From positions 1 through 64,000 of the forward strand of contig LGRX02035461.1 of NCBI GenBank assembly GCA_001247695.2: a DNA stretch of 64,000 nucleotides, written 5' to 3'. The translations under genes and the position numbers were made by a program. The notes under the pieces were generated by a model. That model was not told the DNA's origin. It searched no databases and saw only the letters and a program-made list of their open reading frames with translations. This stretch comes from Cymbomonas tetramitiformis. Its lineage: Eukaryota; Chlorophyta; Pyramimonadophyceae; Pyramimonadales; Pyramimonadaceae. How positions within the stretch are numbered: position 1 is the stretch's first letter; every line of letters starts with the position of its first letter. Of this stretch, positions 14,407-56,865 are shown piece after piece.

Positions 14407-14811
14407 AAAATTATCGGCACTATAATTTCGGTTATTCGAAGGTAGCAGAGTACACCCCCCCCCGGCGATGTCGCCTGGGATTTTTTGTGGCATCAGATTT
14501 TCTGTGCGACAGATCCCGTAGCGACGAGTGGGCGCGACAGTCGTGTCGCCCGCGACGGGTTCGGACGGAGACCCGTCACCGTGTGTCAGTTGGCCCGCAT
14601 CAGATGCCCGAGTCATTTGAGACACTTGCTTGATCTGTTTTGGGATTTCAAACTGACACTTTCCGATCGGCCGCCACGTGGCCCGATCGAGCCTCGGCCA
14701 ACTGCCGAGAGCTGTGCGACAGTGCTTAAAACAGTTTCACTAGGATCAGTGAAACAGTTTTCTCACTTCGAGCCCACACGTGCCAAAAGCACGGTTCTTG
14801 CTCTTTTTTCT

Positions 14812-16713: not shown

Positions 16714-17546
16714 AAAATTATCGGCACTATAATTTCGGTTATTCGAAGGTAGCAGAGTACACCCCCCCCGTCGATGTCGCCTGGGATTTTTTGTGGCATC
16801 AGATTTTCTGTGCGACAGATCCCGTAGCGACGAGTGGGCGCGACAGTCGTGTCGCCCGCGACGGGTTCGGACGGAGACCCGTCACCGTGTGTCAGTTTGC
16901 CCGCATCAGATGCCCGAGTCATTTGAGACACTTGCTTGATCTGTTTTGGGATTTCAAACTGACACTTTCCGATCGGCCGCCACGTGGCCCGATCGAGCCT
17001 CGGCCACCTGCCGAGAGCTGTGCGACAGTGCTTAAAACAGTTTCACTAGGATCAGTGAAACAGTTTTCTCACTTCGAGCCCACACGTGCCAAAAGCACGG
17101 TTCTTGCTCTTTTTTCTCCCGCCATCCCTCCCTGGTCCTGTTGTGTGACTCTGGGTTTGAGCGTGGTGGGGTTTGGGTGAGAGGAAGCTTCTTTGTCCCC
17201 CAGGTCTTGGCTGAAGCCTGAAGCCTGAAGCCTGAAGCCTGGAGCCCAACAGCTGCCGAGCAGCTGCACAGAAGCTTCCTTGTGTCACCACTGCTTAGAG
17301 CCACAGTTCAGACACTTGGCTAGTTGTGAGATTGAGAGATGAGACAGACTCGAGAGTTGTTGGTACAGAGACACAGAGACATGGGACCCCTGCCTGATGG
17401 CTGACTAGCAGACCGCTGTGACCAGGAGTACTGGAACACATCTCCGCAGACGGTATATCAATATTTGATTTGTATATAAAACATTGCTATTCCCATGTGT
17501 GTTGTGATTGTGCCTTGGTGTACCTGCTTCCTGGCAAGAATAACCC
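16714..17546 (+). mobile_element. Tyrosine-recombinase element, unit 3 (833 bp, non-coding)
   Basis: A third head-to-tail copy, exactly 833 bp like unit 2, with only a few substitutions. Its end reads AATAACCC instead of AATAATCC, and the gene resumes with GCAGCACC at 17547. The tandem arrangement is what successive recombinase-mediated integration of circles at the same core site would give. Confidence 0.8.
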
Positions 17547-20500: not shown

Positions 20501-20565
20501 GCGCTCATGTGCCGCACCTGGTCACGCGTGCCCTTGCAACCCCTCGCACGGTCAGCGCTCGACAC
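17547..20565 (-). CDS. RCC1-repeat and nidogen-like surface protein, N-terminal part of split gene
   Basis: An intronless frame of about 1,000 codons. The first ATG is at 20508; the frame is open a little further upstream, so an upstream exon or signal peptide may be missing. It starts with an Ala-rich helical region. Five nearly identical 50-residue RCC1/BNR repeats (20104-19355) share a GQLGDGT...YTPVRVMAGHDVVQAAA pattern. Then come three FYG tripeptides (near 19230-19180) and Ala/Pro-rich linkers. A nidogen-like module follows (about 18850-18300: TYQACLEDNLP, VDFDGDG, FHFFG, SGRLIFG), then a low-complexity His/Ser/Ala stretch. The frame then reads into the mobile block, where it would add about 29 element-encoded residues before a stop at 17458. 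It is in frame with 9797-14406. Confidence 0.8.
19355..20104 (-). repeat. Five tandem 150-bp RCC1-coding repeats
   Basis: The phrase GAGAACGCCTCC recurs at 19481, 19631, 19784, 19934 and 20084, a period of 150 bp with one 153-bp step. All copies keep the reading frame. Identity is very high between units, pointing to recent unequal exchange or gene conversion within an expressed propeller-type repeat. Confidence 0.9.
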
Positions 20566-40193: not shown

Positions 40194-40550
40194 TACATAC
40201 ATAACACGAGGGGCCTCATATGCCCATATGAGCTGAAATTCAGCCTATATATCAGGGCTCTATATCGGTTTGATTTTTCGGTATCGATACAATCCGATAT
40301 CCGGAAAACGGTATCGATAATCGGCATAATCGATAAATAATCGATTATTTGGGCATTTATATGAAATTTGTTATAAATTAAATATGCAACACCGAAACCG
40401 GCACAATCGATAGTTTGATATGGCAACCCGATAATCGGCGATAAATACGATATATCGATAGTATCGGTTATCGGAAATATCGATATAGAACCTTGCTATA
40501 TATGAGCTGAAATTCAGTCTATATATGAGGCTATATATGAGCTGAAATTC
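40194..40550. repeat. AT-rich minisatellite, left part
   Basis: Irregular copies of GAGCTGAAATTCAGCCTATA plus CGATAATCG/ATCGATA-type short palindromes. The same unit continues after the Ty3/gypsy element at 54332-54476, so that element inserted into this array. Confidence 0.8.
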
Positions 40551-41243
40551 TGTGCCCGGAGGCACAGCGTGAGCCGATATGTCTATGCGTCCGTATGTGT
40601 GTCATCGGGGGTAATCTGGGATTGGCACGATGACAGTGAGATTGGGCTTGAAATCACGATGAGAATGAATACCAGATGTCCGGGGTATGACAGTATGACA
40701 CTATGACACTATGACAGTATGACAGTATGACACTATAGTAGTATGACAGTACTGTGGGGGGTGTCATCGTGGAACTCAGTCAGACCCTCGAAGAATGGTC
40801 AGATTCGCATCGGGGTTGAAAAGACAATGAAATCGAATATCAGATATTAAGGTTATGACAGTATGACAGTATGACGCTATGACAGTATGACAGTATGACA
40901 GTACAGTAGTATGACAGTACTGTGGGGCAGTCATCGTGTCAGTCTGTTGGCATAACATCTGAATCGAGAATGACGGATCGGAATTAGAAATGAGATCGGA
41001 TCGAGAACTGAACGTTGAGCCGAAGTGTGACATCGGCTCTCGAGTGGTTGACCCTGCAACCTGAGTGACGAGTGAATAAGTAGAGCACTTGAGAAGTGTT
41101 TAGCCTTCAGAACTCGGAACCGAATTATCGTTTGTACCTCAATCTGGCCCTGATCCAGTATATTATAAAAATCCGAATTGTGTACCTTTGCACGTTCAAT
41201 CAAAAACATATCTCCGAGCATCTGTCGTCGTGCCCCTGGCACA
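40551..41243 (+). repeat. 5' LTR of the Ty3/gypsy element
   Basis: 693 bp with 6-bp inverted ends TGTGCC/GGCACA. The upstream half contains two blocks of TATGACAG octamers (about 40684-40755 and 40856-40922), each followed by TACTGTGGGG and GTCATCGTG. This shows an internal duplication of roughly 175 bp, likely in U3. Confidence 0.95.
41156..41172 (+). promoter_or_regulatory. Probable LTR TATA box
   Basis: TATTATAAAA at 41161-41170 lies 74 bp from the LTR end, in an otherwise mixed sequence, and is the best TATA match in the LTR. The same element is at 54249-54258 in the 3' copy. The transcription start would be about 25-30 bp further on; inferred. Confidence 0.45.
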
Positions 41244-41245
41244 TT

Positions 41246-41256
41246 TGGTATCAGCG
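41246..41256 (+). other. Primer-binding site, tRNA-iMet
   Basis: TGGTATCAGCG starts two bases after the LTR. TGGTATCAG is the complement of the 3' end of eukaryotic initiator-Met tRNA, the usual primer of Ty3/gypsy elements in plants and algae. One mismatch occurs at the tenth base. Confidence 0.85.
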
Positions 41257-42007
41257 TGCTGCGATTTCGCCTCTGCGCAACTCGCCCACGGGCCTTTTGT
41301 AACTTCCGTTGTACTACAGGGGGAGAGCTGCACTTCCGGCTATCTGGGCGCAATTTTAGCCTCCGTAAGTACATTTTTTTTGGTATACAACGGCCGTATC
41401 CTTTGGAAAACATCTCCAAAACTTCATATTTTCGCCCCTTAACACTGGGGACCCAACCAGGCTCAAAAAAGTCAGCATTCGTTTTCCGATCTTAACTTCC
41501 AAGTCTGCCCCAGGCTACAAACTACCGTCAGGGAGCACCCTAAAGGGTTTCCCCGGTTTATAGTAGCCAGGAAAACCCCGTAGCTCACTTTCTAGAGCCT
41601 TAAAAAGGCGAAAAATAGCCAAAAACAGCCCAAAATAGCCGTTTTAGCCTCTTTTCAGCCTACCCCCAAACCTTCCACAGTAGCCCCCACCACCGAAAAC
41701 TCCTTCCCCAGACCCCATAGAACACCCTAGAGCCCCCCAATACCGCCCTCGCGGCCACCAGCAGCTGGGAAAACCCCTCAAAGTAGCGCTTTTAGTGGCT
41801 TCTGGACAGTTTCTGGACACCTCTGGTTTACCCTCTGGCTGGAATATTCTGGGAGTGTACGAAGTCCGGCTACCTTTTGGGACCTTGCTGAGCTTTCTGG
41901 GACCTTGCTGAGCTTTTCTGGTTGCAGTTCCTCGACCCCTGCCTGCATACATAGGCACTTGAAATCTGTGTCGCGGAGCCCTGGCGAATTTTTGAGTTTG
42001 CCGGTGT
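41257..42007 (+). other. Leader of the Ty3/gypsy element, non-coding
   Basis: About 750 bp between the primer site and the first leader frame. It is C/A-rich with repeats of AAAATAGCC and two adjacent CTTTTGGGACCTTGCTGAGC-type units near 41875-41920. No protein is supported; packaging signals may lie here. Confidence 0.4.
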
Positions 42008-42181
42008 ATGGCAGTACCCCCTTCGCCAGAAGAATACAGAAGAGCGTGGTGGAAACAAGGACCCATCAAGTGGGTATTCCCTCCAGACCCCACCTATCCA
42101 CCAGCAGGCGCCTTCTGGCAGTACGGTCCTTGGAGCGGTCCTCCCTCCCCCTCATCCTCTGACGACGAGGAGGAGAACTGA
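42008..42181 (+). CDS. Small leader ORF 1, acidic tail
   Basis: ATG at 42008, 57 codons, TGA at 42179. It is Trp/Pro-rich and ends in a Ser/Asp/Glu tail (PPSPSSSDDEEEN). A second leader frame just downstream has the same layout. Not recognised. Such frames before gag could control translation of gag or encode an accessory peptide. Confidence 0.35.
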   Translation: MAVPPSPEEYRRAWWKQGPIKWVFPPDPTYPPAGAFWQYGPWSGPPSPSSSDDEEEN

Positions 42182-42185
42182 GCGC

Positions 42186-42419
42186 CTGGATACAGTCGCG
42201 CTGGCTATCCCACCAAGATACCACAACTGGGTGTGGGTTCAGATTGGAAACCTTCTCTTCCGCTACCCGAACTCCCAAGACCTGACAGTCTTCCCCGCAC
42301 TCCCTGGCTCGTATCCAGTGCAAGGAATCGAAGAGTGGCCTTGGGTCCCCCCATCACCACCTGGAAGCCCCGCCCCTTCGCCTCCAGCGAGCGACACCGA
42401 AGAGGACGAGACTAACTAA
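42186..42419 (+). CDS. Small leader ORF 2, acidic tail
   Basis: An open frame without an obvious ATG, ending TAA at 42417-42419. Its last residues (EWPWVPPSPPGSPAPSPPAS then DTEEDETN) mirror leader ORF 1: a Trp motif, a PPSP stretch, then an acidic end. The frame is also open upstream of 42186, so its start is unknown. Resemblance suggests duplication of one small gene, but this is inference from short, low-complexity sequence. Confidence 0.25.
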   Translation: MDTVALAIPPRYHNWVWVQIGNLLFRYPNSQDLTVFPALPGSYPVQGIEEWPWVPPSPPGSPAPSPPASDTEEDETN

Positions 42420-42505
42420 ATAACAAAAGGCGAGCACTCCACACTTTGCTCACCTGTGGCTATTGCCACACCCAGTCCTTGATCTCAACCAGCTCAGTAA
42501 TCAGG

Positions 42506-45500
42506 ATGTCACAGCAGACATCAGAGGCATTTCCCAGCATGAGTGTCAGCGCAGAGCAGCTACACCACACTCTGTTCTCTCCCATAACCTTCCCATCGCC
42601 CACCACATATGCCTCCGCTCACCCCATTCCACACCCAGGCACCACCATGCCCTACACAGCGGTGCCCCGCCCTTACACTATGCCGGATGGCACCCCCGCA
42701 CAGGCTGTATGGAACGGCGTCAATTGGGTATTACCCCAATCAGCGCCCCTCGCTGGGGGAGTATCACCAGTGCCGTTCACACTGGGAACCCATCACCCCG
42801 TGGGTGCATACCCCACACCGTTCCAACAACAGCTACAACAGCAGCAACAGTGGCTCGCGTACCAGCAGCAGCAACAGCAGTGGCTTCAACAGCAGCCACT
42901 GGAACCGATGCAGCAGCAGTTACAGCAGCAGCAGTTACAGCAGCAGCAGCTACAGCAGCAACAGCAGCAGCAGCAGCAGCAGCAACCGCAGCCGCCACAA
43001 CTGCCGCAACATCGACCACAGCAGCCCCATCAGCTGGCACCAGCCACCTCCGCGCTTCATGACTCAGGCGCGGATCCCTCATCGCTGCAGCACTTCATCA
43101 GCATCGGCGCCGCGGCCCTGCCGGACCCTCTGCAGGTACCCCTTGACAGCGGGGTTCAGCAGAACGTCTTGGGCGGTACCCAGCTCTTGGTGCGTCACCT
43201 TCCCGCGGTGGCGACAACCTCAGAGACTCGCCGGCGTCGGCGTTCCCGAAGGGCATCTTCGGGCCCTGCGACACATGGCAAGCATCTCCCAGGTCCAAGC
43301 CACGCACCTGATCACTCTGACCCCGACTCTGGCACGGACATCAGCCGCACCAGCACGGGGACCAGAGGCAGCCGAAGCACGCAGGCACGGGCTGAGCGCA
43401 GGCGGAGGGCCGCCCACAGGTCCGGCTCTGACTCGGACGCGAGCAGCCGAAGTGAACACATTCGCAGAGAAGTCCTAGCGGCAGTACAGGCCCTGGACAT
43501 CTCCGCGGTGCTCTCGAGAGGACTCGCGCTGCCTGGTGCGACGACATCGGCAGGAGTCTCCCCACCAGGCGACCCTCAGGGCAGCGCACAGGGCCTGACG
43601 GCGGACCACCCACACGAGGCAGACGCTGCCGCCAGCGTGACCCCTCCTGTGCCTCAGACCGCCGCTGAGACCGCTCCCGCCGAACCTCCCACTCAGGGCC
43701 GGCCAAATCCCCATAACATGATGGTGGCCCGCCGGCGACAGTCGATGGAGACGGTGGTGCACGGCGGTGGCAATCCCGACTCAGAGCCCAGAGACTCCAG
43801 TTCAAGCGACTCGCCACCAGGCCCCCCTAGTGATCCACCTCAGGATCCCCCTGACGATCCCGCACCAGAGCCCTCCTACCCTCAGTACCCAGAGGTCAGA
43901 GCCCTCTTCGTCACCCACGATGGTGGGTCATTGTGGGTGCACCAGTCAGCTGGGGTGCGAGGCGCGGCAACCGTCTCCCTACCATGGGACGAACGCCGCC
44001 GGGCTGGGGTGCAGGGCGACGCCATCTTGTTCAGGATCATGCACCTGCTGGGAGCGCCGCTGACTGCATATGCGCGCATGGGGGGCCGGCTACACCATGC
44101 ACCCCTACCCCTTACCAACCCTCGTGTGGAGACCTGGGTCCTTATGGTCGACCGCGAGGTCATGGATATGGCAATGGGGGACCCAGCCGCGGCCAATGTG
44201 CGGTCTACCAGCATGGGGCAGCCAGTATGGGAGTGGATCCCTGCTACTGCGCGGGAGTCGGAGATGCAGAACTTCGATCAGGACGGGCTCGCCGCGTGGT
44301 CGGAGGTCAGCAACTCCGATTGGTACCGGAGCATGAGCGTGGTGGCCGCACAACCATCCACACCCCTGCCCTTCCATACACCTCTTCCACTCCCCGCACC
44401 ACCGCCAGCCCCTGCATTACCGCCCACTCCGACCGCAGTCCCCACAAATCCCGCACCTGCGCCTCCGCCCGCGCATGCCCCGAGACCACCACTCCCTGCC
44501 CGTTTTCCCCATGCCGCCGCCGCAAACCCCGTGCTCTCTCCCAGCGCCACCCCCTTTGTTCCAGGCATCGTCCGTCTGCCGCAGGGCACTAACCTGCGAG
44601 CATCTCCAGACGAGGTCCGCCTGGAGCACAAGACCAAAGAGATGGTGCTAAAGCTGGTCAAGAGCGTCACCAGGTTCCCCCGCTCCGCGTCCGACACAAA
44701 ATCGGCCGACAAGGAGGGCCTCCTGACGCAGCTGGAGCACTACTCCCACATGGTGCGGAAGGTATTCCAGGAGGCCATCGTGATCGAAGCACTGACCACT
44801 CCCAGTTGTACGCCATCAGTATCAGAGTACCAGGCGAGTGTGTCAAGTCTTCTTTGGAGCTTCAAGGAGCACACTCTTCAAGATCAGCAGAGGAAGTTCT
44901 TGGAGCGCGCGGCGGGGACCTTTGGGTCCGAGCAAGCTTGGCACCAACGCTACGGGGACCTGGATGTGTTCTTCAGCGATCTGGCGGTGTGCTCTCTGAC
45001 GCAGGCCTACCTGGAGAACGCACACGGCGAGGCCATTGCCCTGAAGCAGGCGGTGAGCGAGACCGCGGCGGAGTATTTCTCGCGACTGGAGACCCGCATG
45101 GCCTCCGTCAACTTCTTGGCCGGCAGAGTCCCAAATTGCGTGGAGATGACCAACTTGTCGATGCTCTCCACGTTCCGCCGGGGGCTGAAATATGCACCCA
45201 AGGTGATGCGGCGCCTGAGAGCCATCCACTTGGATGTCTCCAAACCAGAAGAGTGGGAGAGGAAGGCCGTCGCTGACGACATCCCAGGCACCCACAACGC
45301 CTTGTTGAAGATTCGGGAAGTTGCTGAGGAGGTGGAGAGCGACATTGACACGGAGGCGGCTCAGAGACGCTCTCAAGACCGTCCTCCCCGTGCCGTTTCT
45401 TTCGCTAACCCACCACCTCGCACCCCCTTCTACAGGCGTACCCCCTCTTCGAACCGCCCAGCCCTTGCCATGCTGGAGAACGGGCCTGCCACCACCGTCG

Positions 45501-45874
45501 CCGCGGCAGTGACTCCCTTGCCACCACCGCCTGGCCTCTCCCGCCCTGATGCTCCGAAAGTCCGCCGGTGCTTCGCCTGTGGCTCTGCGGAACACATCGT
45601 CCGTAACTGTACGGACGAGGCTAAGCTCAAGGAGTGGAGGGCCAATGCACCCGCTCGACTGGCGAACTCCCCTGGGTATGTGGCCGCCGTCGTCTGGGCC
45701 ATCGAGCAGCAGGAGGACATCTCCTCGGTGGATGGCGTCCCAGAAGAGTTCTCCGAGGAGGTCCTGGCTCTCGCTACCTGTGAGGACGAGCAGAGCTATC
45801 AGACCCTGGCGGCCCTTGCGGGCATCGAACTTGTGGAGGGTGACGGCCTTCCCCTGGTGGAGAGCGACGAATGA
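42506..45874 (+). CDS. gag: Gag polyprotein
   Basis: The ATG at 42506 has A at -3; the frame is also open a little upstream. 1,122 residues, very long for Gag. A Pro/Gln-rich N terminus includes a poly-Gln run (residues ~106-175, CAG microsatellite at 42830-42990). Ser/Arg- and Pro-rich linkers follow, then a helical capsid-like region (about residues 700-930; FLERAAGTFG, EYFSRLETRMASVNFLAG). A CCHC zinc knuckle CFACGSAEHIVRNC is at residues 1022-1035 (45569-45610). It ends at TGA 45872-45874; the same frame stays open beyond and encodes the protease. Confidence 0.9.
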   Translation: MSQQTSEAFPSMSVSAEQLHHTLFSPITFPSPTTYASAHPIPHPGTTMPYTAVPRPYTMPDGTPAQAVWNGVNWVLPQSAPLAGGVSPVPFTLGTHHPVGAYPTPFQQQLQQQQQWLAYQQQQQQWLQQQPLEPMQQQLQQQQLQQQQLQQQQQQQQQQQPQPPQLPQHRPQQPHQLAPATSALHDSGADPSSLQHFISIGAAALPDPLQVPLDSGVQQNVLGGTQLLVRHLPAVATTSETRRRRRSRRASSGPATHGKHLPGPSHAPDHSDPDSGTDISRTSTGTRGSRSTQARAERRRRAAHRSGSDSDASSRSEHIRREVLAAVQALDISAVLSRGLALPGATTSAGVSPPGDPQGSAQGLTADHPHEADAAASVTPPVPQTAAETAPAEPPTQGRPNPHNMMVARRRQSMETVVHGGGNPDSEPRDSSSSDSPPGPPSDPPQDPPDDPAPEPSYPQYPEVRALFVTHDGGSLWVHQSAGVRGAATVSLPWDERRRAGVQGDAILFRIMHLLGAPLTAYARMGGRLHHAPLPLTNPRVETWVLMVDREVMDMAMGDPAAANVRSTSMGQPVWEWIPATARESEMQNFDQDGLAAWSEVSNSDWYRSMSVVAAQPSTPLPFHTPLPLPAPPPAPALPPTPTAVPTNPAPAPPPAHAPRPPLPARFPHAAAANPVLSPSATPFVPGIVRLPQGTNLRASPDEVRLEHKTKEMVLKLVKSVTRFPRSASDTKSADKEGLLTQLEHYSHMVRKVFQEAIVIEALTTPSCTPSVSEYQASVSSLLWSFKEHTLQDQQRKFLERAAGTFGSEQAWHQRYGDLDVFFSDLAVCSLTQAYLENAHGEAIALKQAVSETAAEYFSRLETRMASVNFLAGRVPNCVEMTNLSMLSTFRRGLKYAPKVMRRLRAIHLDVSKPEEWERKAVADDIPGTHNALLKIREVAEEVESDIDTEAAQRRSQDRPPRAVSFANPPPRTPFYRRTPSSNRPALAMLENGPATTVAAAVTPLPPPPGLSRPDAPKVRRCFACGSAEHIVRNCTDEAKLKEWRANAPARLANSPGYVAAVVWAIEQQEDISSVDGVPEEFSEEVLALATCEDEQSYQTLAALAGIELVEGDGLPLVESDE

Positions 45875-45889
45875 CTGGCCGGCGGCCAG
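45872..45889 (+). promoter_or_regulatory. Candidate UGA readthrough site with hairpin
   Basis: The only stop between Gag and protease in this frame is UGA followed by CUG, and directly after it lies CTGGCCGGCGGCCAG, a perfect 6-bp stem with a 3-nt loop (45875-45889). Gag-stop-Pol in one frame with a structured 3' side is the arrangement used for stop-codon readthrough in gammaretroviruses. UGA with a following C is a leaky context in eukaryotes. Function here is inferred. Confidence 0.5.
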
Positions 45890-48721
45890 CCCCAGACCCT
45901 GCCCTTCGGGGAAGTGAGGTCTTGCCCTGATGATCAGACCCTCTCCGCCCTGGAGAAGCGGTCAGAACCAGTGGAACCCCGACGCGCCCGAGGACGCAGA
46001 GACCCTTGGGGCCAACGTCCCCACCCCAAGAGTGTGGCCTTCACCTCTGGGACCCGCTTGCGACGCACCTACCGCTCAGCTGGTGCCCCATCGCCACCGA
46101 GGGATGACTTGTCCAGCCACCCTCTCGCAGGAAGCACCCCCTTCGATGAGCCGTCGCTGCCTCTTGATGACGGCCCCGCTTATACACAAGCGAGGATCGA
46201 GGGTCGGAGGGGACGGCGAGTTCCCCAACACAGACCCCCTATTATGGGCAACAACCGCGGAGAACCCCGTGACCTTCGCCCCCGACCGCGTGTTGTCCTA
46301 CCGCTGCCCATTTATCAGTCCAACCTCGCGGACCCACGGAAAAGGCTAACTGCGTGGCACTGGAAGAGGGATCTGTACTCCCTCCCCCTCGAAGTCGCCA
46401 TGCAGAAGGTCCGCAGAGCTCTGCGCAAGTCCCCGGAGGCTGCCAAGGACCTGGTGGATAAAATGTCGGAGCGCGTCCGCAGCCGCGTACACTCTGGGAG
46501 TCGATCGCCAAGGGAGCGCGTGAACCGCGCCAACCAGCTGGCAGAGAGGATACGCATTGCCCGCGAACCTCAAGATCGCAAGGAAGGCCATCAGCGCATA
46601 GCATTGTGGCACCTCCTTTCACACGACGGTCGCCAGCAAGTCCCCGAATCCTCTAACACCAGCTCCCACGACCTCTACGCGGCTTGGAGAGAGCTGTCGC
46701 CTGCCGAGCAGCAAAAGGCAATCGCCACTTCGAGTCCAGACTCTTCCCCAGGTAGCAGGCTGTGGGAAAAGGAGGGCGCACGAAGAGCAGCAGCGAGGTC
46801 TTCGACATCCCTCTGCACCCTGGACACTGAAGTGGGCACGATACCTGGGACAGCGGGAGATGTGGGTTTACCTGGTGCCTGGTGCAGTCTGCACGCAGTA
46901 CACCAGTACAAGATGAGGAAGCTGGGTCCCAGCCCCTTGGGAGCATCCCCTCCATCATCCTCACTGGCCGAGCCCACAGCAGAGACCACATCTTCGCACC
47001 ATGATAACGCGCCAGCCACTCCGGGAGGAAACCCCGAAGGTTCATCTTACTGCTCAGAGGCGGAGGAGACCTCCGCACCCAGTTCGCTTTGCTTCACCCA
47101 GCAGATGACCACCGTCAAAACGCATGAAGCGGATGAAGCGCCACCCTGTCTCGACAGCCATCCCATCGCTGAAGACCCTGAGGTGATGGAAGAGGAGTCC
47201 TCGGTCAACTCGCTCTGCTTCACCCAGCAGATGGCAGCAGCTGGGACCCCTCAGACGAGAACTGACCACCAGAGCTCCCACCAGCTCGCCCACAACTCCC
47301 CTGCTGGCAGCCCTCAGCATGACGAGGATCCTCTCACCCATGGCAGTCTCACCGATAGTGTCGCTACCCACGTGAGCCCCACAGTAAGCGGCACTACCCA
47401 TGTTAGCCCTACCACCAGTGGCACTACACATGTGAGCCCTACTACCAGTGACACCACCCATGTGAGCCCTACCACCAGCGGCACCACTCATGTCAGCCCC
47501 ACCTCGAGCGAATGCACCTCAGCGGGCACCCTGCTGACGGCGAGTGCAGACAACCTCGTCAGTCATCCGCCTGAAGATGTCGATTTGCTGGATGAGGAGT
47601 TCTACGCCGCGTGTAGGCAAACGCTGGAAGAATGCCGCGAGGCCTCGGACAACCTCCTCCCCAACCTCAAGTGCAAAAGCATACGCACAGATGGGGGAGT
47701 TCAGTGGAAGACCGACATCGAGGGTACCCTCGCAGCGGCACATGACGAAGAAGGACCACTACTACTGGTATTCTACGCAACCCTCAGAGGGCACACGGTC
47801 AAGGTGTTGATTGACTCGGGGGCCTCTGACAACTTCATCTCGGAGCAGAGCGCTAAGCGATGTGGCCTCACAACACGAGCCGGTTCCGAGATGCGAGTCA
47901 CTCTGGCGGATGGATCTGTGAAGATCACTGGCGCCACCGCGTACGCCAAGTTCAACACGCACACCACCACGGGCACCTATACGGAGAACGCCCTTGCCCT
48001 CCGGATCCTGCCGCTGGGCATACAGGTGGATGTTATCCTCGGCGGAAGGTGGCTGCGCAGTCACTCTCCTGTCACTCTGGGCTATGAAGGGAATGGCTCC
48101 GTCTCTTTCCTCAGGAAGTCCCGCGGTGGTAAGATTGGGGACCGCGTCACCATCACAGGCTGTTCTCCTGGGAAAGCATCTGGGGACAGGTCTCCGAAGG
48201 GCACGGCCTGCGCGGGATTGGTGGATGAGGTGTTCCTGACCCCTGCCCAGCTGAAGAAGTACCTGGTGTATGCGGAGACGCAGAAGCTACGCGGCAATGA
48301 CGACCCGGAGATACAGCCCGCCTGGCTCATGGTGGCCGAGAAGTCCCCCGACGATACTGCTTCTGCCTTTGCAGCCACGGCTATCGACTCTGAGAACGCC
48401 GAACCCGCTGCGGATACTGAAGATGCAGAAGTGAGCCCTGAGTGGACCCTCAAGTTTCAGGACTTCTGGGGTGAGGAGTACAAGAAGGAGATGACGACTG
48501 CTCTACCGAACATCGATGGACTCAGACATGACCCCCAAGATGAAGCCAACATTAACCTGGACCCTGAGCTGAGCAAGAAGGGACCTCCCTGCCAGCGCAT
48601 CTACAAGAAGTCCGCAGAGGAACTCCGCCAACTTCGAGAACGCGTGGAGACTCTGATGTCCAAGGGCTACATCCGACCCTCTTCCAGTCCCTTATGCAGC
48701 TCCCTGTTTGATGGTCCCTAA
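45875..48721 (+). CDS. Protease-containing frame of the Ty3/gypsy polyprotein
   Basis: In frame with Gag after the UGA. The first ~600 residues are basic then Ser/Thr/Pro-rich and match no family I know. They contain a duplicated SLCFTQQM motif (47083-47107, 47209-47233) and five 10-residue THVSPTTSGT-like repeats (47365-47510). The retropepsin domain follows: the active-site motif VLIDSGASDNFI has its catalytic Asp at 47813-47815, and ILGGRWLR is near 48036. Just before the end comes the start of RT (YIRPSSSP), after which this frame ends with TAA at 48719. RT continues in the +1 frame from about 48693. Confidence 0.85.
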   Translation: MAGGQPQTLPFGEVRSCPDDQTLSALEKRSEPVEPRRARGRRDPWGQRPHPKSVAFTSGTRLRRTYRSAGAPSPPRDDLSSHPLAGSTPFDEPSLPLDDGPAYTQARIEGRRGRRVPQHRPPIMGNNRGEPRDLRPRPRVVLPLPIYQSNLADPRKRLTAWHWKRDLYSLPLEVAMQKVRRALRKSPEAAKDLVDKMSERVRSRVHSGSRSPRERVNRANQLAERIRIAREPQDRKEGHQRIALWHLLSHDGRQQVPESSNTSSHDLYAAWRELSPAEQQKAIATSSPDSSPGSRLWEKEGARRAAARSSTSLCTLDTEVGTIPGTAGDVGLPGAWCSLHAVHQYKMRKLGPSPLGASPPSSSLAEPTAETTSSHHDNAPATPGGNPEGSSYCSEAEETSAPSSLCFTQQMTTVKTHEADEAPPCLDSHPIAEDPEVMEEESSVNSLCFTQQMAAAGTPQTRTDHQSSHQLAHNSPAGSPQHDEDPLTHGSLTDSVATHVSPTVSGTTHVSPTTSGTTHVSPTTSDTTHVSPTTSGTTHVSPTSSECTSAGTLLTASADNLVSHPPEDVDLLDEEFYAACRQTLEECREASDNLLPNLKCKSIRTDGGVQWKTDIEGTLAAAHDEEGPLLLVFYATLRGHTVKVLIDSGASDNFISEQSAKRCGLTTRAGSEMRVTLADGSVKITGATAYAKFNTHTTTGTYTENALALRILPLGIQVDVILGGRWLRSHSPVTLGYEGNGSVSFLRKSRGGKIGDRVTITGCSPGKASGDRSPKGTACAGLVDEVFLTPAQLKKYLVYAETQKLRGNDDPEIQPAWLMVAEKSPDDTASAFAATAIDSENAEPAADTEDAEVSPEWTLKFQDFWGEEYKKEMTTALPNIDGLRHDPQDEANINLDPELSKKGPPCQRIYKKSAEELRQLRERVETLMSKGYIRPSSSPLCSSLFDGP
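48686..48698 (+). promoter_or_regulatory. +1 frame change within the RT N terminus
   Basis: The conserved RT phrase is split between frames: ...RPSSSP is read in the protease frame up to CCC (48689-48691), and YAAPCLMVPKPG is read from 48693 in the next frame, with T 48692 skipped. CCC-U is a known slippery quadruplet for +1 shifts. A single inserted T, by mutation or assembly error, is equally possible. Confidence 0.6.
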
Positions 48722-51700
48722 ACCCGGGAACCCCAAGGAGCTGCGACTGGTGATCGATTACCGGCTCCTCAACCGCCAGACAGTTAAGGACAAGTATCCT
48801 CTCCCAGACATCCAGATGATGTTCGACGAGATGCAGGGTGCGAAGTTCTTCTCTTCGTTCGACGCGGTGGATGGCTTCTGGCAAGTACCGATGGCACCAG
48901 GAGATGTTGAGAAGACCGCCTTCACCACCCAGATGGGGTCATATGAGTGGTTGGTCATGCCGCAGGGGCTGCAGAATTCACCATCTCAGTACCAGCGACG
49001 GATGCAGCGGGCCTTGGGCCATCTCCCATTTGTCCGGATCTTCATCGACGATGTGGTCGTCTTCAGCAACACCGCTGCAGAGCACTACGAGCACGTCAAA
49101 CAACTGCTCCTGACATGCAGGGAGAAGGGCGTCTTCCTCAAGAGGTCCAAGTGCCAACTGTTGAAGAAATCCTTACGGTTCCTTGGCCACTGTATCTCCG
49201 CAGATGGCTGCAGACCCCAACATGACAAGGTGGCTGCAGTGAGGGACTGGCCCGAGCTGGAGACGGTTACCCACGTCAGGCAGTTCTTGGGCCTAGCGGG
49301 GTATTACCGCAGGTTCATCCACTGCTTCTCCGAGATCGCTCAGCCCCTCACCCGGTTGACCAAGTCGGACGTACCCTGGGAGTGGGGTCCCATGCAGCAG
49401 TGGGCCTTCGAGGAGCTGAAGAAGGCCCTCACATCAGCGCCAGTGCTCGCCTTGCCCAACATTAAGGGTGCCGCAGACGGCACAGCGCCTTTCGTGGTGC
49501 AAACGGATGCTAGCGGCATCGCTCTTGGGGGAGTACTTATGCAAGACAATGGAGATGGTCTTGGGCTGCGCGTGATAGCATACGAGAGCCGCCAGTTCTC
49601 AGCCGCCGAGCAGAATTACCACACCGGCGAGCGTGAGCTAGGTGCTCTACACCACTGTACCACCGTCACCTGGCGGCATTACCTCATCTTCACCAACTTC
49701 CGCATCCAGGGTGATCACCGCCCCCTTGAATGGCTGATGGAACCTGGCAGAGAGCTTAGCCGCAGACAGGCGCGCTGGTACATGGATCTGGTAGAGGTGG
49801 GAGTCCCGAGAATGGAGTATATCAAGGGAGCGCTGCTGCTGGTACCAGACGCCCTGTCCAGAAGACCCGACTTCAAAGACAAGGACGTTCGCGAGGGGTT
49901 GAAGGAGGCAGGAGTGATCGACCCCACCTCAGACCTGCCGAAAGACCCTCTGGCAACGCTGGAGTCTGAATGCTTCTCCAGCTCACCACCCGCAGCTCAT
50001 CCCCACTGGGCTCAGACGGTTGACTGTTGGCTCTCAGCAGTGGAGACCCTCTCCGTGGCGGAACAGGCCATGGACATGGGGGAGACCATCGCTCTCGTTA
50101 ATCCGAAGCTCTATAAGGGAATGAAGGAGGATCACCTCGACTTCGACATGCCTGACTGGCCTGAAGCTGATAGCGCGAAGCCGACAGAAGCTCCACACCA
50201 AACCCCTGACAGAGCTCCACCTCAGACAAGGATAACGAGGAGCATGTCACGTGCTGGAAGAGCCTCTACGACCCCAGCGCCTCCACAGTTGGCGTCACCG
50301 AAGACGCGAACGCCATCACGAGCTGACGCATCGGAGGCGCCCACTGAGAAGGTGCAGAGTTCACCACCCCCGCAGCAGGCACCCCAGCAGTCATCTCCAT
50401 CCCCGGCCCTTCACCCGCAGAAACGGCAGACTCCCCCCGAAGACTCACAGAATTGGCGTGTCCGAGCAGAGTACTCCTCGAAGTACGCCGAGAAGTTTGG
50501 ACCCTTCGATGTGGACGCCTGTTGTGACTTTGGCGGCCGCAACAGACAGGCGGATAGGTTCTGGACAGACTGCCTTTCAGAGAAATGGAGGGGCCTTCGG
50601 GTTTGGTGTAACCCCCCATATAACTCCAAGCACATTACAGTGGAGGCGATTTTGAACAAGTATATCGCAGAATGGAAGGCAGACCCAGAAAACACTTCAG
50701 CAGTCTTCGTCCTACCAGATCACCAGTCCAAGCTCCCCGCGTGGCGCAAACTTTTCAGAAAGGCCAATATGCAGATCGTGGAGGTCATCCCTACTCACGA
50801 TGATAAGGGCGAGCCCAATCAGTTCTTCGAGAACCCAGATGGGAAGGCCTTCGACCTTCGTTGGCCTGTGCTGATAGTACACGCCCCTTCCGCCAAACCA
50901 CAGCCGGCACGCGTGAGGCACCCGCGAACAGCCCCCGCTGTGATAAGGACAGGTGAGGCAGCAGCCTTCAGAGACGCAACCTCCCAGCAGTCGGACTCAA
51001 AGTTCCTGCGTGCGTTGAAAGCGGAGTACACCCGAGAGGGGACACTTCGTTCGCTGCGAGAGAAAGTGAAGGCGGCGCCACACCAGTGCCTACAGGACTT
51101 CAGGCTGGTGGGTGAAGTGGTTTGGAGGACCGCAGCAGGGAGATATCAGCTGGTGCTGGGGGAGGACTCTCCACTTCGAGAAGTGGTGATTCGCCATGCT
51201 CATGAGTCATTGTCCTCAGGCCATACTGGGCGGGACAAGACTCTGGAGAGGGTGCTGCGACGCTTCTATTGGCGTGGTGCCGCGGAAGATGTGGGCACCT
51301 GGGTTACATCCTGCGCAGTGTGCCAATCAGTGAGACCGAGGGGAACTTACCCGGATGGGTTGCTAAACCCTCACAGCATCCCGAACAGGCCATGGCAGGA
51401 TGTCGCGGTGGACTTCGTCACCGGCCTGCCTATATCAGAGAGGGGAATTGATGCTTTCGTGGCCTTCACCTGCAAGCTGACGAAGATGGTTCACGTTGTA
51501 CCAATGAACTTTGGCGACAGCTCCGCAGCTGTGGTGGCCAGAATCTACTTTGACTCGGTGTGGCGCTTACATGGCGCGCCTATGAAGATTGTCTCTGATC
51601 GTGACCCGCGGTTTCAAGATGCTTTCTGGCAGGAACTCATGAGACTGATGGGTGTGAAAGTGGCTCGTACCACGCCGTACAACCCTCGGTCTGACGGCCA

Positions 51701-53450
51701 GGCAGAACACAGCAACAGAGTTATTGAGGACATGCTCAGGTCCTTTGTTGACGCCAATGTGGAGGACTGGGATCTGTTCACCACTAACGTGGAGTTCGCG
51801 ATCAATGACTCCAGGAGTGAATCTACTGGCTTCACGCCGTTTGAACTGGTGTTCGGGTTCTCGCCGCTGTCGCAGTTGGATCTTTTCCTGGAGGCCGCGC
51901 AGTCCACCGCCGGACGACGAACTGGGGGAGTAGGCACCGCACACGAAGTGGCTGTGAAATTTTCGTCGCAGCTGCGGGACGCCAGACAGCGGTTGGAGCT
52001 GGCTCAACAGCGACAGCGCGAACAGTTTGATCGCAGACACGGGCAGCGGGAGTATGCTGTTGGGGATCTGGTCTGGATAGAGGCGAAACACCTCACGGAG
52101 AAGGTGATGGATCGCTCCATCTGTAGGAAACTGACCAAGCGCTGGCATGGACCAGTTCCTGTGACCGAACGCTTCTTCAGCGATATACAGATGACCATGC
52201 CCGAAGCCGACAGGGGAGCTCCAGTAGCCTACCGCCTACGCCTCCCTCCTCACTGGCGGATTCACGACGTGTTCGCTCAACATCGCCTCAAGCCGTACAC
52301 CAGCGGTCAAGATGCTTTTGCCGCACGCGATCACCTAGCAGTACCTGAAGAGGTGGTAGTAGACGGTCAGAAGGAAGCACACGTTGAGCGTATCCTCGCA
52401 CGTCGAGTGCGGTCTGTTCGAGGAAAGGAGGTGGAAGAGTGGAAGGTTCGCTGGACTGGCTACTCCAAAGCTCACGACCAATGGAGGACGCGTGACAAAC
52501 TTGAACGCGGAAGTCCACTTCAACAACTTCGTGAATTCGAGCAAGCGAGACTGCACATGGAAGCGCAAGTTCGCGACGAAGCCACTCGGCGACGCGAGCA
52601 GCGTGGCCGCCACTCCGCTCAAGCCGGAATGACACTGGCCCACCTCATCACCAATCCCTGCGACGAACTGGACCAGCTCGAACAGATGGAAGATGATATC
52701 CCCCTGCCGTGGGAACGCCAGGAGCGCGTGGAAGATGGGTCGTTGGCACTGGTGACAGAGCTGCTGGCAATACAGGCAAAGACAACCCGCACGCCCAGGA
52801 TTCTCGTACTCTTCAGCGGTACTGGCTCAGTAGAGAGGGAATTCCTAAATTGCTTCCCCTCCGCCTCAGTGGTGACCCTCGACTCCGGGCATATCTGGCA
52901 ACCCACTCATGTGTGTGACATCCTGCAATGGGACTACAAGCAATACCCGCCTGGATTCTTCGATGTCATTTGGGCAAGTCCCCCCTGCAGGCAGTACAGT
53001 CAAGCGCGCACCACTGGTGGACCCCCTGACCTTCCCCAGGCTGACAAAATCGTACGACGAGCATTGCAGATCATTGACTACCTGGAGCCAAAATATTGGT
53101 TCATGGAAAACCCCAGAGGTCGCTTCCCTAACGCGCTGCGGCTTCGCCCTATGATGCGCCAACTTCCCCCACCGCTGGTGTGTACCTACTGCATGTATGG
53201 TACGCAGTACATGAAACCCACCTGCATATGGACGAACTCGGCACCACCCTCGCCCCTGCTACGCTGTACTACTTCAACACCGTGTGCGTGCAGATGGGCA
53301 ACCGGTGCTCACCCAGAGACTGCTCAGCTTGGACCTCACCCGCAGCAGACTGGAGCAGGTCGATCTGCGAGTGTATACCCCGTGCCAGCACTCCTGCTAC
53401 GACAACTTTTCCGACATTTACGCCTCCGCGACACTGAAGACCCGCTTTAG
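48693..53450 (+). CDS. pol: Pol: RT, RNase H, Dam-type MTase, integrase, chromodomain, C5-MTase-like
   Basis: About 1,585 codons. RT spans 48693-49200, with SFDAVDGF and the catalytic FIDD (Asp-Asp 49047-49052). RNase H spans about 49490-49740 (TDAS at 49502). After a Pro/Ser linker, a Dam-type adenine methyltransferase (50454-50890) shows FGPFDVDACCD and NPPY (50610-50621). The integrase has an HHCC finger (51195-51330). Its catalytic triad is Asp 51411, Asp 51597 and Glu 51705, with 35 residues between the last two. The chromodomain (52375-52530) has WKVRWTGY. The C-terminal C5 methyltransferase-like domain (52797-53450) has FSGTGS, SPPC (Cys 52986) and MENPRG. All catalytic motifs look intact, so the element could be active apart from the frame change. 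Placement of the Dam domain inside pol argues that it is processed with the other enzymes. Confidence 0.92.
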   Translation, partial: YAAPCLMVPKPGNPKELRLVIDYRLLNRQTVKDKYPLPDIQMMFDEMQGAKFFSSFDAVDGFWQVPMAPGDVEKTAFTTQMGSYEWLVMPQGLQNSPSQYQRRMQRALGHLPFVRIFIDDVVVFSNTAAEHYEHVKQLLLTCREKGVFLKRSKCQLLKKSLRFLGHCISADGCRPQHDKVAAVRDWPELETVTHVRQFLGLAGYYRRFIHCFSEIAQPLTRLTKSDVPWEWGPMQQWAFEELKKALTSAPVLALPNIKGAADGTAPFVVQTDASGIALGGVLMQDNGDGLGLRVIAYESRQFSAAEQNYHTGERELGALHHCTTVTWRHYLIFTNFRIQGDHRPLEWLMEPGRELSRRQARWYMDLVEVGVPRMEYIKGALLLVPDALSRRPDFKDKDVREGLKEAGVIDPTSDLPKDPLATLESECFSSSPPAAHPHWAQTVDCWLSAVETLSVAEQAMDMGETIALVNPKLYKGMKEDHLDFDMPDWPEADSAKPTEAPHQTPDRAPPQTRITRSMSRAGRASTTPAPPQLASPKTRTPSRADASEAPTEKVQSSPPPQQAPQQSSPSPALHPQKRQTPPEDSQNWRVRAEYSSKYAEKFGPFDVDACCDFGGRNRQADRFWTDCLSEKWRGLRVWCNPPYNSKHITVEAILNKYIAEWKADPENTSAVFVLPDHQSKLPAWRKLFRKANMQIVEVIPTHDDKGEPNQFFENPDGKAFDLRWPVLIVHAPSAKPQPARVRHPRTAPAVIRTGEAAAFRDATSQQSDSKFLRALKAEYTREGTLRSLREKVKAAPHQCLQDFRLVGEVVWRTAAGRYQLVLGEDSPLREVVIRHAHESLSSGHTGRDKTLERVLRRFYWRGAAEDVGTWVTSCAVCQSVRPRGTYPDGLLNPHSIPNRPWQDVAVDFVTGLPISERGIDAFVAFTCKLTKMVHVVPMNFGDSSAAVVARIYFDSVWRLHGAPMKIVSDRDPRFQDAFWQELMRLMGVKVARTTPYNPRSDGQAEHSNRVIEDMLRSFVDANVEDWDLFTTNVEFAINDSRSESTGFTPFELVFGFSPLSQLDLFLEAAQSTAGRRTGGVGTAHEVAVKFSSQLRDARQRLELAQQRQREQFDRRHGQREYAVGDLVWIEAKHLTEKVMDRSICRKLTKRWHGPVPVTERFFSDIQMTMPEADRGAPVAYRLRLPPHWRIHDVFAQHRLKPYTSGQDAFAARDHLAVPEEVVVDGQKEAHVERILARRVRSVRGKEVEEWKVRWTGYSKAHDQWRTRDKLERGSPLQQLREFEQARLHMEAQVRDEATRRREQRGRHSAQAGMTLAHLITNPCDELDQLEQMEDDIPLPWERQERVEDGSLALVTELLAIQAKTTRTPRILVLFSGTGSVEREFLNCFPSASVVTLDSGHIWQPTHVCDILQWDYKQYPPGFFDVIWASPPCRQYSQARTTGGPPDLPQADKIVRRALQIIDYLEPKYWFMENPRGRFPNALRLRPMMRQLPPPLVCTYCMYGTQYMKPTCIWTNSAPPSPLLRCTTSTPCACRWATGAHPETAQLGPHPQQTGAGRSASVYPVPALLLRQLFRHLRLRDTEDPL

Positions 53451-53624
53451 ATTCCAAGTGGCACCCTTCTTCTTGAAAGTGGTGCCCTGGTAGCGGCAGG
53501 CGAACTATGCTCGAAGAGGAACCAGAGAACCTAAGAACTGGAAACAGCAAGGAACCAGAGAACCTAAGAACTGGAACTTAGATGGGTACCTTAGTGGAGT
53601 GATCCCAGGAGGTAGACCACTCCT
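53451..53624 (+). other. 3' untranslated part of the Ty3/gypsy element
   Basis: Short non-coding stretch between the pol stop and the polypurine tract. It holds a direct repeat GGAACCAGAGAACCTAAGAA (near 53518 and 53551). Confidence 0.6.
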
Positions 53625-53638
53625 AAGGGGGGGAGAGT
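53625..53638 (+). other. Polypurine tract
   Basis: AAGGGGGGGAGAG followed by T, directly before the 3' LTR. This is where plus-strand DNA synthesis would start. Confidence 0.8.
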
Positions 53639-54331
53639 TGTGCCCGGAGGCACAGCGTGAGCCGATATGTCTATGCGTCCGTATGTGTGTCATCGGGGGT
53701 AATCTGGGATTGGCACGATGACAGTGAGATTGGGCTTGAAATCACGATGAGAATGAATACCAGATGTCCGGGGTATGACAGTATGACACTATGACACTAT
53801 GACAGTATGACAGTATGACACTATAGTAGTATGACAGTACTGTGGGGGGTGTCATCGTGGAACTCAGTCAGACCCTCGAAGAATGGTCAGATTCGCATCG
53901 GGGTTGAAAAGACAATGAAATCGAATATCAGATATTAAGGTTATGACAGTATGACAGTATGACGCTATGACAGTATGACAGTATGACAGTACAGTAGTAT
54001 GACAGTACTGTGGGGCAGTCATCGTGTCAGTCTGTTGGCATAACATCTGAATCGAGAATGACGGATCGGAATTAGAAATGAGATCGGATCGAGAACTGAA
54101 CGTTGAGCCGAAGTGTGACATCGGCTCTCGAGTGGTTGACCCTGCAACCTGAGTGACGAGTGAATAAGTAGAGCACTTGAGAAGTGTTTAGCCTTCAGAA
54201 CTCGGAACCGAATTATCGTTTGTACCTCAATCTGGCCCTGATCCAGTATATTATAAAAATCCGAATTGTGTACCTTTGCACGTTCAATCAAAAACATATC
54301 TCCGAGCATCTGTCGTCGTGCCCCTGGCACA
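53639..54331 (+). repeat. 3' LTR of the Ty3/gypsy element
   Basis: 693 bp. By eye it is identical to the 5' LTR at a constant offset of 13,088, including the TATGACAG blocks and the TATA box. Followed by the AATTC target duplication. Confidence 0.95.
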
Positions 54332-54480
54332 AATTCAGCCTATATATGAGCTGAAATTCTGCCTATAACCCTATATATGAGCTGAAATTCAGCCTATATA
54401 TCACCTGAAATTCAGCCTATATATATATATATATATATGACCTGAAATTCGGCCTATATATGAGCTGAAATTCGAGCTCT
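54332..54480. repeat. AT-rich minisatellite, right part
   Basis: Continuation of the array at 40194-40550: units of ATGAGCTGAAATTCAGCCTA with (TA)n runs. It encodes the tail (IYRPNFRSYIYIYI) of the open frame of the zinc-finger fragment by chance. Confidence 0.8.
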
Positions 54481-55573: not shown

Positions 55574-56713
55574 TCATACAAATACCCGCACGAATGATTG
55601 TGCCGCATTCAGCTCCATGTATTCTTTCGTCGAGACTTTCTCTATCTGCCTTGAGGATGGCATTCCCAAGACTTGCCACACTTTCATATAATGTCTAGCA
55701 ATCCTCTCTGTTTTCCAATACGCCGGTCCCATAACCTGCTGCAGGTCGGCTCCTTCAAGGAAAAGTTCAATTGCTCCCGCTGTCCGAATGCTGAAGAATG
55801 TTTCCCCATTGAACAGCCCCGCTTTTTGCAACCAGCATTTGAGGTCTGAATTCATCTGCTTCCTGGAAATTGGACTATTTTCCACTTTGCCAGACCTGAC
55901 TGGTCTGAACAAGAATCCTTGTGCAAGGTTCAGACCCAAAATTTTCATCACTTGGAGGCAGTCCTCCAACGCTGAGATGGGGCATTTAGATTTATCAGGG
56001 AGTCTTTTGATTCCGAAAATGTGTTCATCGCCCGAACGGAGTGTCTTCCCCCACTGGTAGTTGAAGAGAAAACCGGAGTTATCGGGAAATCTTATGATCC
56101 CTTCCACCCTTGTGGCGCCCAGCTCCGCCGGTCTCTTCAGAGCGTATAAGTCCATCAAGATCATTGCCTTACATCTAAGAGTGATGAACAAAAGTATCCA
56201 ATCTTGTGTCGAGGCAAAACCAGCTGCCTCTGCGTTCATGTGAATCACTAGCTTGTCGATCGTACAACTGAAAAGTGGTGTTGCCTGATTTGGGGTGATT
56301 CTTGCCTGCAACTGTTCGTTCCTGGTCATCGTTTCATAGACCTTAACCACTCTACCTGTGCACGGGTTGTCCGACCCACCCCTTCCGAAATCCTGGAAGG
56401 CACTAGAGAGTCTGCCGATAAGGGAATTCACCGAACTTGCGGCTTGCCTGACTGGGCAACTACATCTTCCCAGTTGAGGGCACGTGGCCGAATGTACGTT
56501 AGTCTTACCGAACTGTTCCAAGTAAATAAGATACCATAAGATGTGTTGTGCTGTACACGAATCCAATGATTCTGGTGGGGTCATGCAAGCCAGGAATTCC
56601 CCGAGGGCCCGCAAATTTCGGAGTTTGGCCGATTGGTACACATCCCTGGCCCTTGCTTCCTGAAGCTCCTTCGTTCTTAGATGTATGGCGGCCCAGTCAG
56701 GGGCTTTTCTCAA
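55574..56713 (-). CDS. Tyrosine recombinase of a DIRS-like element
   Basis: An open frame of 379 codons. It begins at a non-ATG codon next to a possible splice acceptor (TTAACAG), so the true start is unknown. An N-terminal helical SAM-like part is followed by the catalytic part. Visible residues are Arg194 (LKRPAEL), a Lys near 222 (WGKTLR), box FSIRTAG with Arg310, Trp333 and the nucleophile candidate Tyr342 (ARHYMK). The first residue of the usual HxxR box is Phe307 instead of His. This matches YR enzymes of DIRS/Crypton type; length is complete for the family. Substitution of His could lower activity or be a clade feature. Confidence 0.75.
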   Translation of the reverse strand: MRKAPDWAAIHLRTKELQEARARDVYQSAKLRNLRALGEFLACMTPPESLDSCTAQHILWYLIYLEQFGKTNVHSATCPQLGRCSCPVRQAASSVNSLIGRLSSAFQDFGRGGSDNPCTGRVVKVYETMTRNEQLQARITPNQATPLFSCTIDKLVIHMNAEAAGFASTQDWILLFITLRCKAMILMDLYALKRPAELGATRVEGIIRFPDNSGFLFNYQWGKTLRSGDEHIFGIKRLPDKSKCPISALEDCLQVMKILGLNLAQGFLFRPVRSGKVENSPISRKQMNSDLKCWLQKAGLFNGETFFSIRTAGAIELFLEGADLQQVMGPAYWKTERIARHYMKVWQVLGMPSSRQIEKVSTKEYMELNAAQSFVRVFV

Positions 56714-56865
56714 CAGGCTCTTGCCACCACCCTGTTAACCTCAAAATTTTCCCCTTCCCCGAAAGTTACAGGCGTTCAACAATTTATTTTCCAAGATAAA
56801 CGGATTACTATGGGGAGCTATTAATATATCACATGAATTTTGTGTTTTTGGAATACGAAGTGTTT

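Follow-up and report, generated by a model that had tools for sequence, protein, structure and literature searches.

Within the 64,000 nucleotides of Cymbomonas tetramitiformis contig LGRX02035461.1 analysed here (positions 1 to 64,000, forward strand; hereafter the window), positions 40551-54331 are occupied by a Ty3/gypsy retrotransposon of the chromovirus type, whose pol region carries two added domains, one of the Dam-type N6-adenine and one of the C5 cytosine methyltransferase kind. An earlier note on this DNA had described a young Ty3/gypsy element encoding both enzyme types, and our analysis supports that description, with both domains found to be under purifying selection. The two long terminal repeats (LTRs), 693 bp each, are identical at 693 of 693 bases, and AATTC lies on both sides of the element as a 5-bp target-site duplication, exactly as the note had it and in keeping with the LTRs and short duplication of Ty3/gypsy chromoviruses. 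A putative initiator-Met-like primer site and a polypurine tract were both read by eye from the sequence alone.

The domains of pol follow the order protease, reverse transcriptase (RT), RNase H and integrase, with the chromodomain behind the integrase (Table 1). From the full RT, RNase H, integrase and chromodomain set that had been claimed, RVT_1, RNase H, H2C2 and Chromo were matched, H2C2 and the chromodomain above cut-off, but the integrase core rve stayed below it (23.5 vs 32.6), as did the CCHC knuckle of the gag-like open reading frame (ORF; 17.2 vs 20.8). Pol encodes an integrase, and not the tyrosine recombinase that replaces it in DIRS elements. The claim of a single pol frame holds for protein P0002 and many copies of the same genome, which are uninterrupted over ~2,500 amino acids, but not for the window, where RT starts in the first of the two pol frames and the rest of pol lies in the second, so that this copy is frameshifted within RT. 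Some 2,500 amino acids is the length expected if pol begins directly after the gag stop, and the gag-TGA-pol arrangement suggests stop-codon readthrough as a possible mode of expression.

Both methyltransferase assignments made in the note were confirmed by profile searches. The Dam domain matches PF05869 with 31.9 bits (cut-off 28.1), covering positions 3-78 of 169, and phrog_111 at 2e-13, and its NPPY fits the catalytic pattern [DN]PP[YFW]; it is predicted to act as an N6-adenine methylase of DNA. For the C5 domain, a predicted DNA cytosine-C5 methylase, PF00145 gave 25.1 bits (cut-off 22.0) and phrog_757 4e-18 over most of the profile length, and a C5 fold was predicted, with DNA enzymes in all 50 structural matches listed. 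On membership in the Dnmt3 clade the evidence points two ways: DNMT3A/B rank first among these by structure, whereas the best PHROGs profile is phrog_757. Searched by sequence against solved structures, the C5 domain gave weak matches only (best E 0.08) and the Dam domain no trustworthy match. Chance matching to methyltransferase profiles was ruled out, because both domains exceed the cut-off in the window and because of the predicted structure and the relatives described below. Across a motif table of 22 rows in which both domains are at least 85% covered, several of them copies of one family and so not independent, the motif IV SPPC and the motif VI ENP of the C5 domain are present in all 22, and the Dam NPPY is intact in 19. 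Twelve rows with partial domains were left out of this table.

To determine how widespread this architecture is, we searched the genome from which the window comes, which comprises 25,745 contigs and 851.7 Mb. With the Dam profile, at least 150 places were scored (7,257 candidates, DIRS elements among them), and with the C5 domain also at least 150 (8,322 candidates); in protein searches with pol, the C5 part returned 28 proteins, 12 of them named Cymbomonas tetramitiformis, and the Dam part 17. Chromodomain and C5 occur together in 30 of 30 C5 loci that were fetched, the window itself included (L138), and integrase in 29, although these loci were chosen as best protein matches and are therefore biased towards an intact C5; L192-L195, too, were found through C5 similarity. 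Among 30 Dam loci, 21 also match the RNase H or integrase of the window, eight hold a Dam domain of 29-42% identity with no such match and are DIRS-like where read, and one (L111) has a 63% identical Dam alone.

Nine further genome stretches were fetched to read Dam through to C5, and seven of them contain both domains. The other two, L182 and L183, had been selected on a Dam match and carry a Dam of 32-36% identity and no C5. Further copies of the architecture, on which the earlier note's claim depended, do exist: both domains were read directly within one ORF in L195, L192-L194 and L179-L181. These represent at least three families: that of the window; one like protein P0003 (L192-L194), with 11 places at 90% identity or more, nine of which extend over nearly the full length; and a third (L179-L181), with identities of 61% for Dam and 69% for C5. 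A solitary chimera is ruled out by these copies and families. L114 and L115 (Dam 57-58%, integrase 72%) are unlike the three families and perhaps belong to a fourth.

Outside this genome record, a contig filed in a Verrucomicrobiaceae metagenome-assembled genome (L081, TMED86) holds RNase H, Dam, integrase, chromodomain and C5 in one ORF, with 36% (Dam) and 45% (C5) identity, and is most likely misbinned eukaryotic DNA; it has no row in the motif table. Pfam often fails to report one or both domains of such distant relatives, which are then recognizable from their motifs and from a BLAST comparison with the window. The family of protein P0022 was sought in the window genome and not found, the best places (56%, among the best 150 of 8,145 candidates) being the window family or its near kin. 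Another relative, P0023 from an ENA record, has a chromodomain and C5, a Dam-like segment recognized by BLAST and an NPPF motif but not by Pfam, and, between that segment and the integrase, a PHD finger (residues 1278-1322), which would bring to three the modules for chromatin or DNA modification in a single Pol. Elsewhere, the ankyrin-repeat-rich Cymbomonas protein P0027 holds a C5-domain fragment, a possible exonisation or gene-model artefact, and P0056 and P0074, named for the dinoflagellate Prorocentrum minimum, have the same C5 type and group with retroelement C5s in the tree.

The element, a Ty3/gypsy chromovirus of a green alga, has been active recently and is present in high copy number. 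Both LTRs are complete in the fetched stretches of 7 of 10 sampled copies (the other three are cut by contig ends or have an LTR absent from the stretch). Each of the seven is flanked by a perfect 5-bp duplication; the substitutions that separate its two LTRs number 1, 1, 1, 3, 4, 4 and 8, respectively, over ~690 bp, and gaps take up 0-11 alignment columns. Selection was assessed from synonymous and non-synonymous differences in the two comparisons that are unsaturated. Between the window and L195 these number 20/4 in Dam, 40/5 in integrase, 10/5 in the chromodomain and 35/10 in C5, with ratios of non-synonymous to synonymous rates (dN/dS) of 0.05, 0.03, 0.13 and 0.08, respectively; between L192 and L194 the corresponding counts are 18/3, 58/4, 30/8 and 76/18, and the ratios 0.04, 0.02, 0.05 and 0.05. 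Eight other between-family pairs, saturated or nearly so at synonymous sites, gave proportion-based ratios (pN/pS) of 0.10-0.34 over the four domains. Both methyltransferase domains are thus under purifying selection.

Table 1. Features of the retrotransposon, with positions counted along the whole window.
Feature	Position	Strand	Basis
Target-site duplication AATTC, left	40546..40550	+	
5' LTR, 693 bp	40551..41243	+	identical to 3' LTR
Putative primer-binding site, iMet-like TGGTATCAGC	41246..41255	+	by-eye reading
Gag-like ORF, one weak CCHC knuckle (about 45566-45613), in-frame TGA at end	42416..45874	+	
First part of pol, in the frame of gag: aspartyl protease (about 47777-48046) and RT start	45875..48721	+	
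Remaining pol, shifted frame: RT, RNase H, Dam, integrase, chromodomain, C5	48657..53450	+	
Reverse transcriptase match RVT_1	48714..49190	+	Pfam 1e-31
RNase H match	49383..49793	+	Pfam 5e-27
Dam-type N6-adenine methyltransferase domain, DVDACCD ... NPPY	50427..50900	+	Pfam, PHROGs
Integrase zinc-binding match H2C2 and weaker integrase-core match	51168..51686	+	Pfam H2C2 4e-17
Chromodomain	52380..52541	+	Pfam Chromo 29.6 (cut-off 25.1)
Compact C5 cytosine methyltransferase domain, FSGTGS, SPPC, MENP	52770..53438	+	Pfam, PHROGs, predicted fold
Polypurine tract	53625..53637	+	by-eye reading
3' LTR, 693 bp	53639..54331	+	identical to 5' LTR
Target-site duplication AATTC, right	54332..54336	+	

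In gypsy pol the Dam domain lies after RNase H, which is where DIRS elements have their methyltransferase (MT), and DIRS-like loci of the same genome (L101-L103) carry a Dam ORF behind RNase H-like sequence, followed by a tyrosine-recombinase-like ORF; RT-like sequence also precedes Dam in L102 and L103, and L183 has a tyrosine-recombinase-like end (all named by eye). A 28-row tree places the gypsy and DIRS Dams in one group against two phage Dams (support 100/99), those two being the only phage rows; within the group, DIRS nests next to the remoter gypsy Dams, and the tree has long branches that drew a program warning. The gypsy Dam and the DIRS MT domain appear to share an origin, and the simplest reading would be that the segment was exchanged between DIRS and gypsy elements, in either direction.

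For the C5 domain, profile searching found 6,122 relatives among 7,998 scored candidates, of which the 120 best were listed, and 45 of the 152 C5 sequences entering the tree step were classed as free-standing (short, hardly more than the C5 domain), most of them 37-46% identical to the C5 of the window. C5 relatives of roughly 30-40% identity abound in IMG/VR contigs (595 of the 600 pattern matches listed), whereas a scan of 84,980 prokaryote species with the same patterns, one genome per species, gave only 14 loci. One of these 14 (L082, 1-5407, on a contig filed as Octadecabacter) has small C5, tyrosine recombinase-like, D5-like primase/helicase and GIY-YIG-like ORFs by eye, and in this gene content it seems to resemble a polinton-like virus. 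In the C5 tree, which retained 125 of the 152 rows after near-copy removal (41 of them unclassed) and was built by a quick method with SH-aLRT support only, retroelement C5s fall in several groups among free-standing C5s. The 14 IMG/VR rows form a separate clade, and we therefore name no donor virus. IMG/VR searches with the window C5, the window pol and the A7 group of free-standing C5s gave no confirmed relative, and a search with the A6 group gave five loci. A viral source of the C5 domain is likely, and its scatter over several groups of the tree may reflect more than one capture.

Taken together, these results lead us to favour, with slightly better than even confidence, a model in which the two added methyltransferases of Pol are carried in the replication particle and methylate new cDNA or RNA/DNA intermediates. 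As parts of Pol, both domains would enter the replication particle or complex, and both enzymes would act before or at integration, such that the methylated copy might resemble the host's own modified DNA and pass as self; alternatively, methylation could protect the copy against nucleases or sensing, or fix the chromatin state that the new insertion takes on. In the reading of the earlier note, the chromodomain might in addition read or target silent chromatin. The model is based on the architecture, the young copies, the open frames, the conserved motifs, the predicted folds and the purifying selection, from which we infer the catalysis, substrate, timing and benefit of both domains. More tentatively, and with rather more doubt than belief, we propose that one LTR retrotransposon lineage methylates adenine as well as cytosine in the intermediates of its own replication, by means of a viral-type C5 and a Dam swapped with DIRS elements, and that this aided its rise to very high copy number. 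Dual self-methylation is plausible as a hypothesis.

Several observations weigh against this model. P0022 matches neither PF05869 nor PF00145 at E 0.01, and in L081 the Dam lies just under the Pfam cut-off and PF00145 finds no match. Motif VI of C5 enzymes is usually ENV, and here the canonical form is replaced by ENP, which also occurs in the aligned free-standing relatives. CpG transitions, taken as a sign of cytosine methylation in the copies, are in small excess: in 25 of 29 near-identical copies they affect 17 of 382 CpG sites and 40 of 1,278 other C sites, and this 1.4-fold difference is compatible with either presence or absence of the mark. In the yeast test of de Mendoza et al. 2018 (PMC5890265), Gypsy- and LINE-borne C5 domains gave no methylation, a result described there as inconclusive. 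The closest structural matches of the Dam model are RNA methyltransferases, its Foldseek matches are weak, and the NPPY of Dam is replaced by SPPH in P0006, SPPC in P0007 and SPPS in P0019 (3 of 22 rows), implying that adenine methylation is not always needed.

The model has two main rivals. If the C5 domain alone mattered as an enzyme, with Dam serving chiefly for structure or binding and retaining its motif in some cases, one could account for the three lost NPPY motifs beside C5 motifs intact in 22 of 22 rows, for P0024, which has C5 and no Dam match, and for the usually lower conservation of Dam than of C5 between families. This we regard as unlikely, since in close comparisons the Dam dN/dS of 0.04-0.05 is as low as that of C5, and since P0032 retains Dam together with its NPPY, whereas the C-terminal part of this protein lacks SPPC and ENP and is no more than a remote, degenerate C5 relative (hhalign probability 41%); P0031 likewise shows Dam and no C5, although the protein may be incomplete. 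The motif counts, P0032 and P0024 indicate that both domains are usually kept but that each can be lost. The second rival, that both domains act on RNA (element RNA, cap or host RNA) instead of DNA, would suit the structural neighbours of the Dam model, yet at the sequence level the PF05869 and phrog_111 matches of Dam point to phage DNA methyltransferases, and the structural matches of C5 are DNA enzymes in every row listed; we give it somewhat less credence still. A further possibility, that the two enzymes work on the host's behalf, for instance by keeping the element in check or targeting viral DNA, has a precedent in a proposal on accessory domains of retroelements (Morozov et al. 2019; PMC6338049), and viral elements have been reported from Cymbomonas (PMC10675990). 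Selection for transposition, however, would fit the low dN/dS seen from one element lineage to another, and we consider this explanation very improbable. An assembly or annotation artefact or functionless passenger sequence, to which the frameshift in the window's RT might hint, is dismissed in view of the 150 or more genomic places with open C5, the three or more dual families, the dual pol in a contig of another record and the low dN/dS.

Since one or the other domain is motif-less or missing in some relatives, the adenine and cytosine roles could be separated by comparison within the lineage, and the abundance of the element means that ordinary nanopore data could directly reveal whether it writes methyl marks on its own DNA.

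Beside the element, a minus-strand ORF at 55574-56734 combines an ALOG domain with a weak phage-integrase match below cut-off, a combination that a DIRS-like element adjoining the gypsy insertion would be expected to show in its tyrosine recombinase. Counts of CpG, GATC and other words in the gypsy element and its flanks revealed nothing striking. By eye, a tandem array of a short TATATATGAGCTGAAATTCAG-like repeat lies on both sides of the insertion (40481-40550 and 54332-54420), and within the LTR (40641-40927) a 119-base block is duplicated, its copies 168 bases apart and 85% alike, and consists of short GACAGTATGACA-like repeats. Two large host-like ORFs also lie on the minus strand, one with C-type lectin and laminin-G-like domains (9797-14410) and one with RCC1 repeats (17458-20565).

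Retroelements with either enzyme type have been described previously. Both types are listed in retroelements by Morozov et al. 2019 (PMC6338049), and according to de Mendoza et al. 2018 (PMC5890265) DIRS and LINE elements of dinoflagellates and a Gypsy element of Klebsormidium contain C5 enzymes, while adenine enzymes occur in DIRS elements from other lineages. A survey of eukaryotic DNA methyltransferases (DNMTs) from 2025 (PMC12344493) places Dnmt3 in both LTR and DIRS elements and also recognizes 'orphan' DNMTs, of which some are LINE-borne or of viral origin; neither Gypsy nor Cymbomonas occurs in its main text, and the main text of the 2023 Cymbomonas assembly paper does not mention methyltransferases. 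Our literature search, which covered sources other than subscription papers and preprints, found no description of both enzymes in one element. In Cymbomonas tetramitiformis itself, Burns et al. 2015 (PMC5741210) report homology to chromodomain, RNase H and cytosine methyltransferase on three scaffolds of >10,000x coverage; the text concerned describes no element and mentions no adenine domain, and these repeats possibly represent the same family as the window element or a sister family.

DIRS elements, with a pol of RT/RH/MT (PMC2685390), share the RT-RNase H-MT order and a DACCD or EACAD followed by NPP[YF] (L101-L103, L183), and are the closest Dam relatives of the window element in our tree. 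They differ in having a tyrosine recombinase and neither integrase nor LTRs (PMC2685390), and no C5 match was found in the DIRS loci fetched from this genome, about 3 kb each. SymbioDIRS-Dnmt3 of dinoflagellates resembles the window element as a retroelement-borne C5, and two such DIRS-borne domains methylate CG de novo in yeast, but it is of DIRS type and its enzyme is a Dnmt3 (PMC5890265). The small viral C5s (phrog_757, phage and IMG/VR) share the short C5 core at about 30-40% identity (30-34% for phage records), but are free-standing, mostly about 200-225 amino acids in IMG/VR loci, and not fused to Pol. KnitGypsy-Dnmt3 of Klebsormidium nitens is likewise a Gypsy-type Pol with a C5 under purifying selection, although that C5 is a Dnmt3 and the section on it mentions no adenine enzyme (PMC5890265). 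The window C5, in contrast, is compact, has ENP and lies near free-standing and viral types, with a Dam domain in addition. A single captured methyltransferase is thus already known in retroelements; here two different ones are combined in one Pol, held by selection and recurring in several families with many uninterrupted young copies. If our more tentative proposal is correct, this would be a eukaryotic retroelement with self-modified DNA comparable to that of phages and giant viruses.
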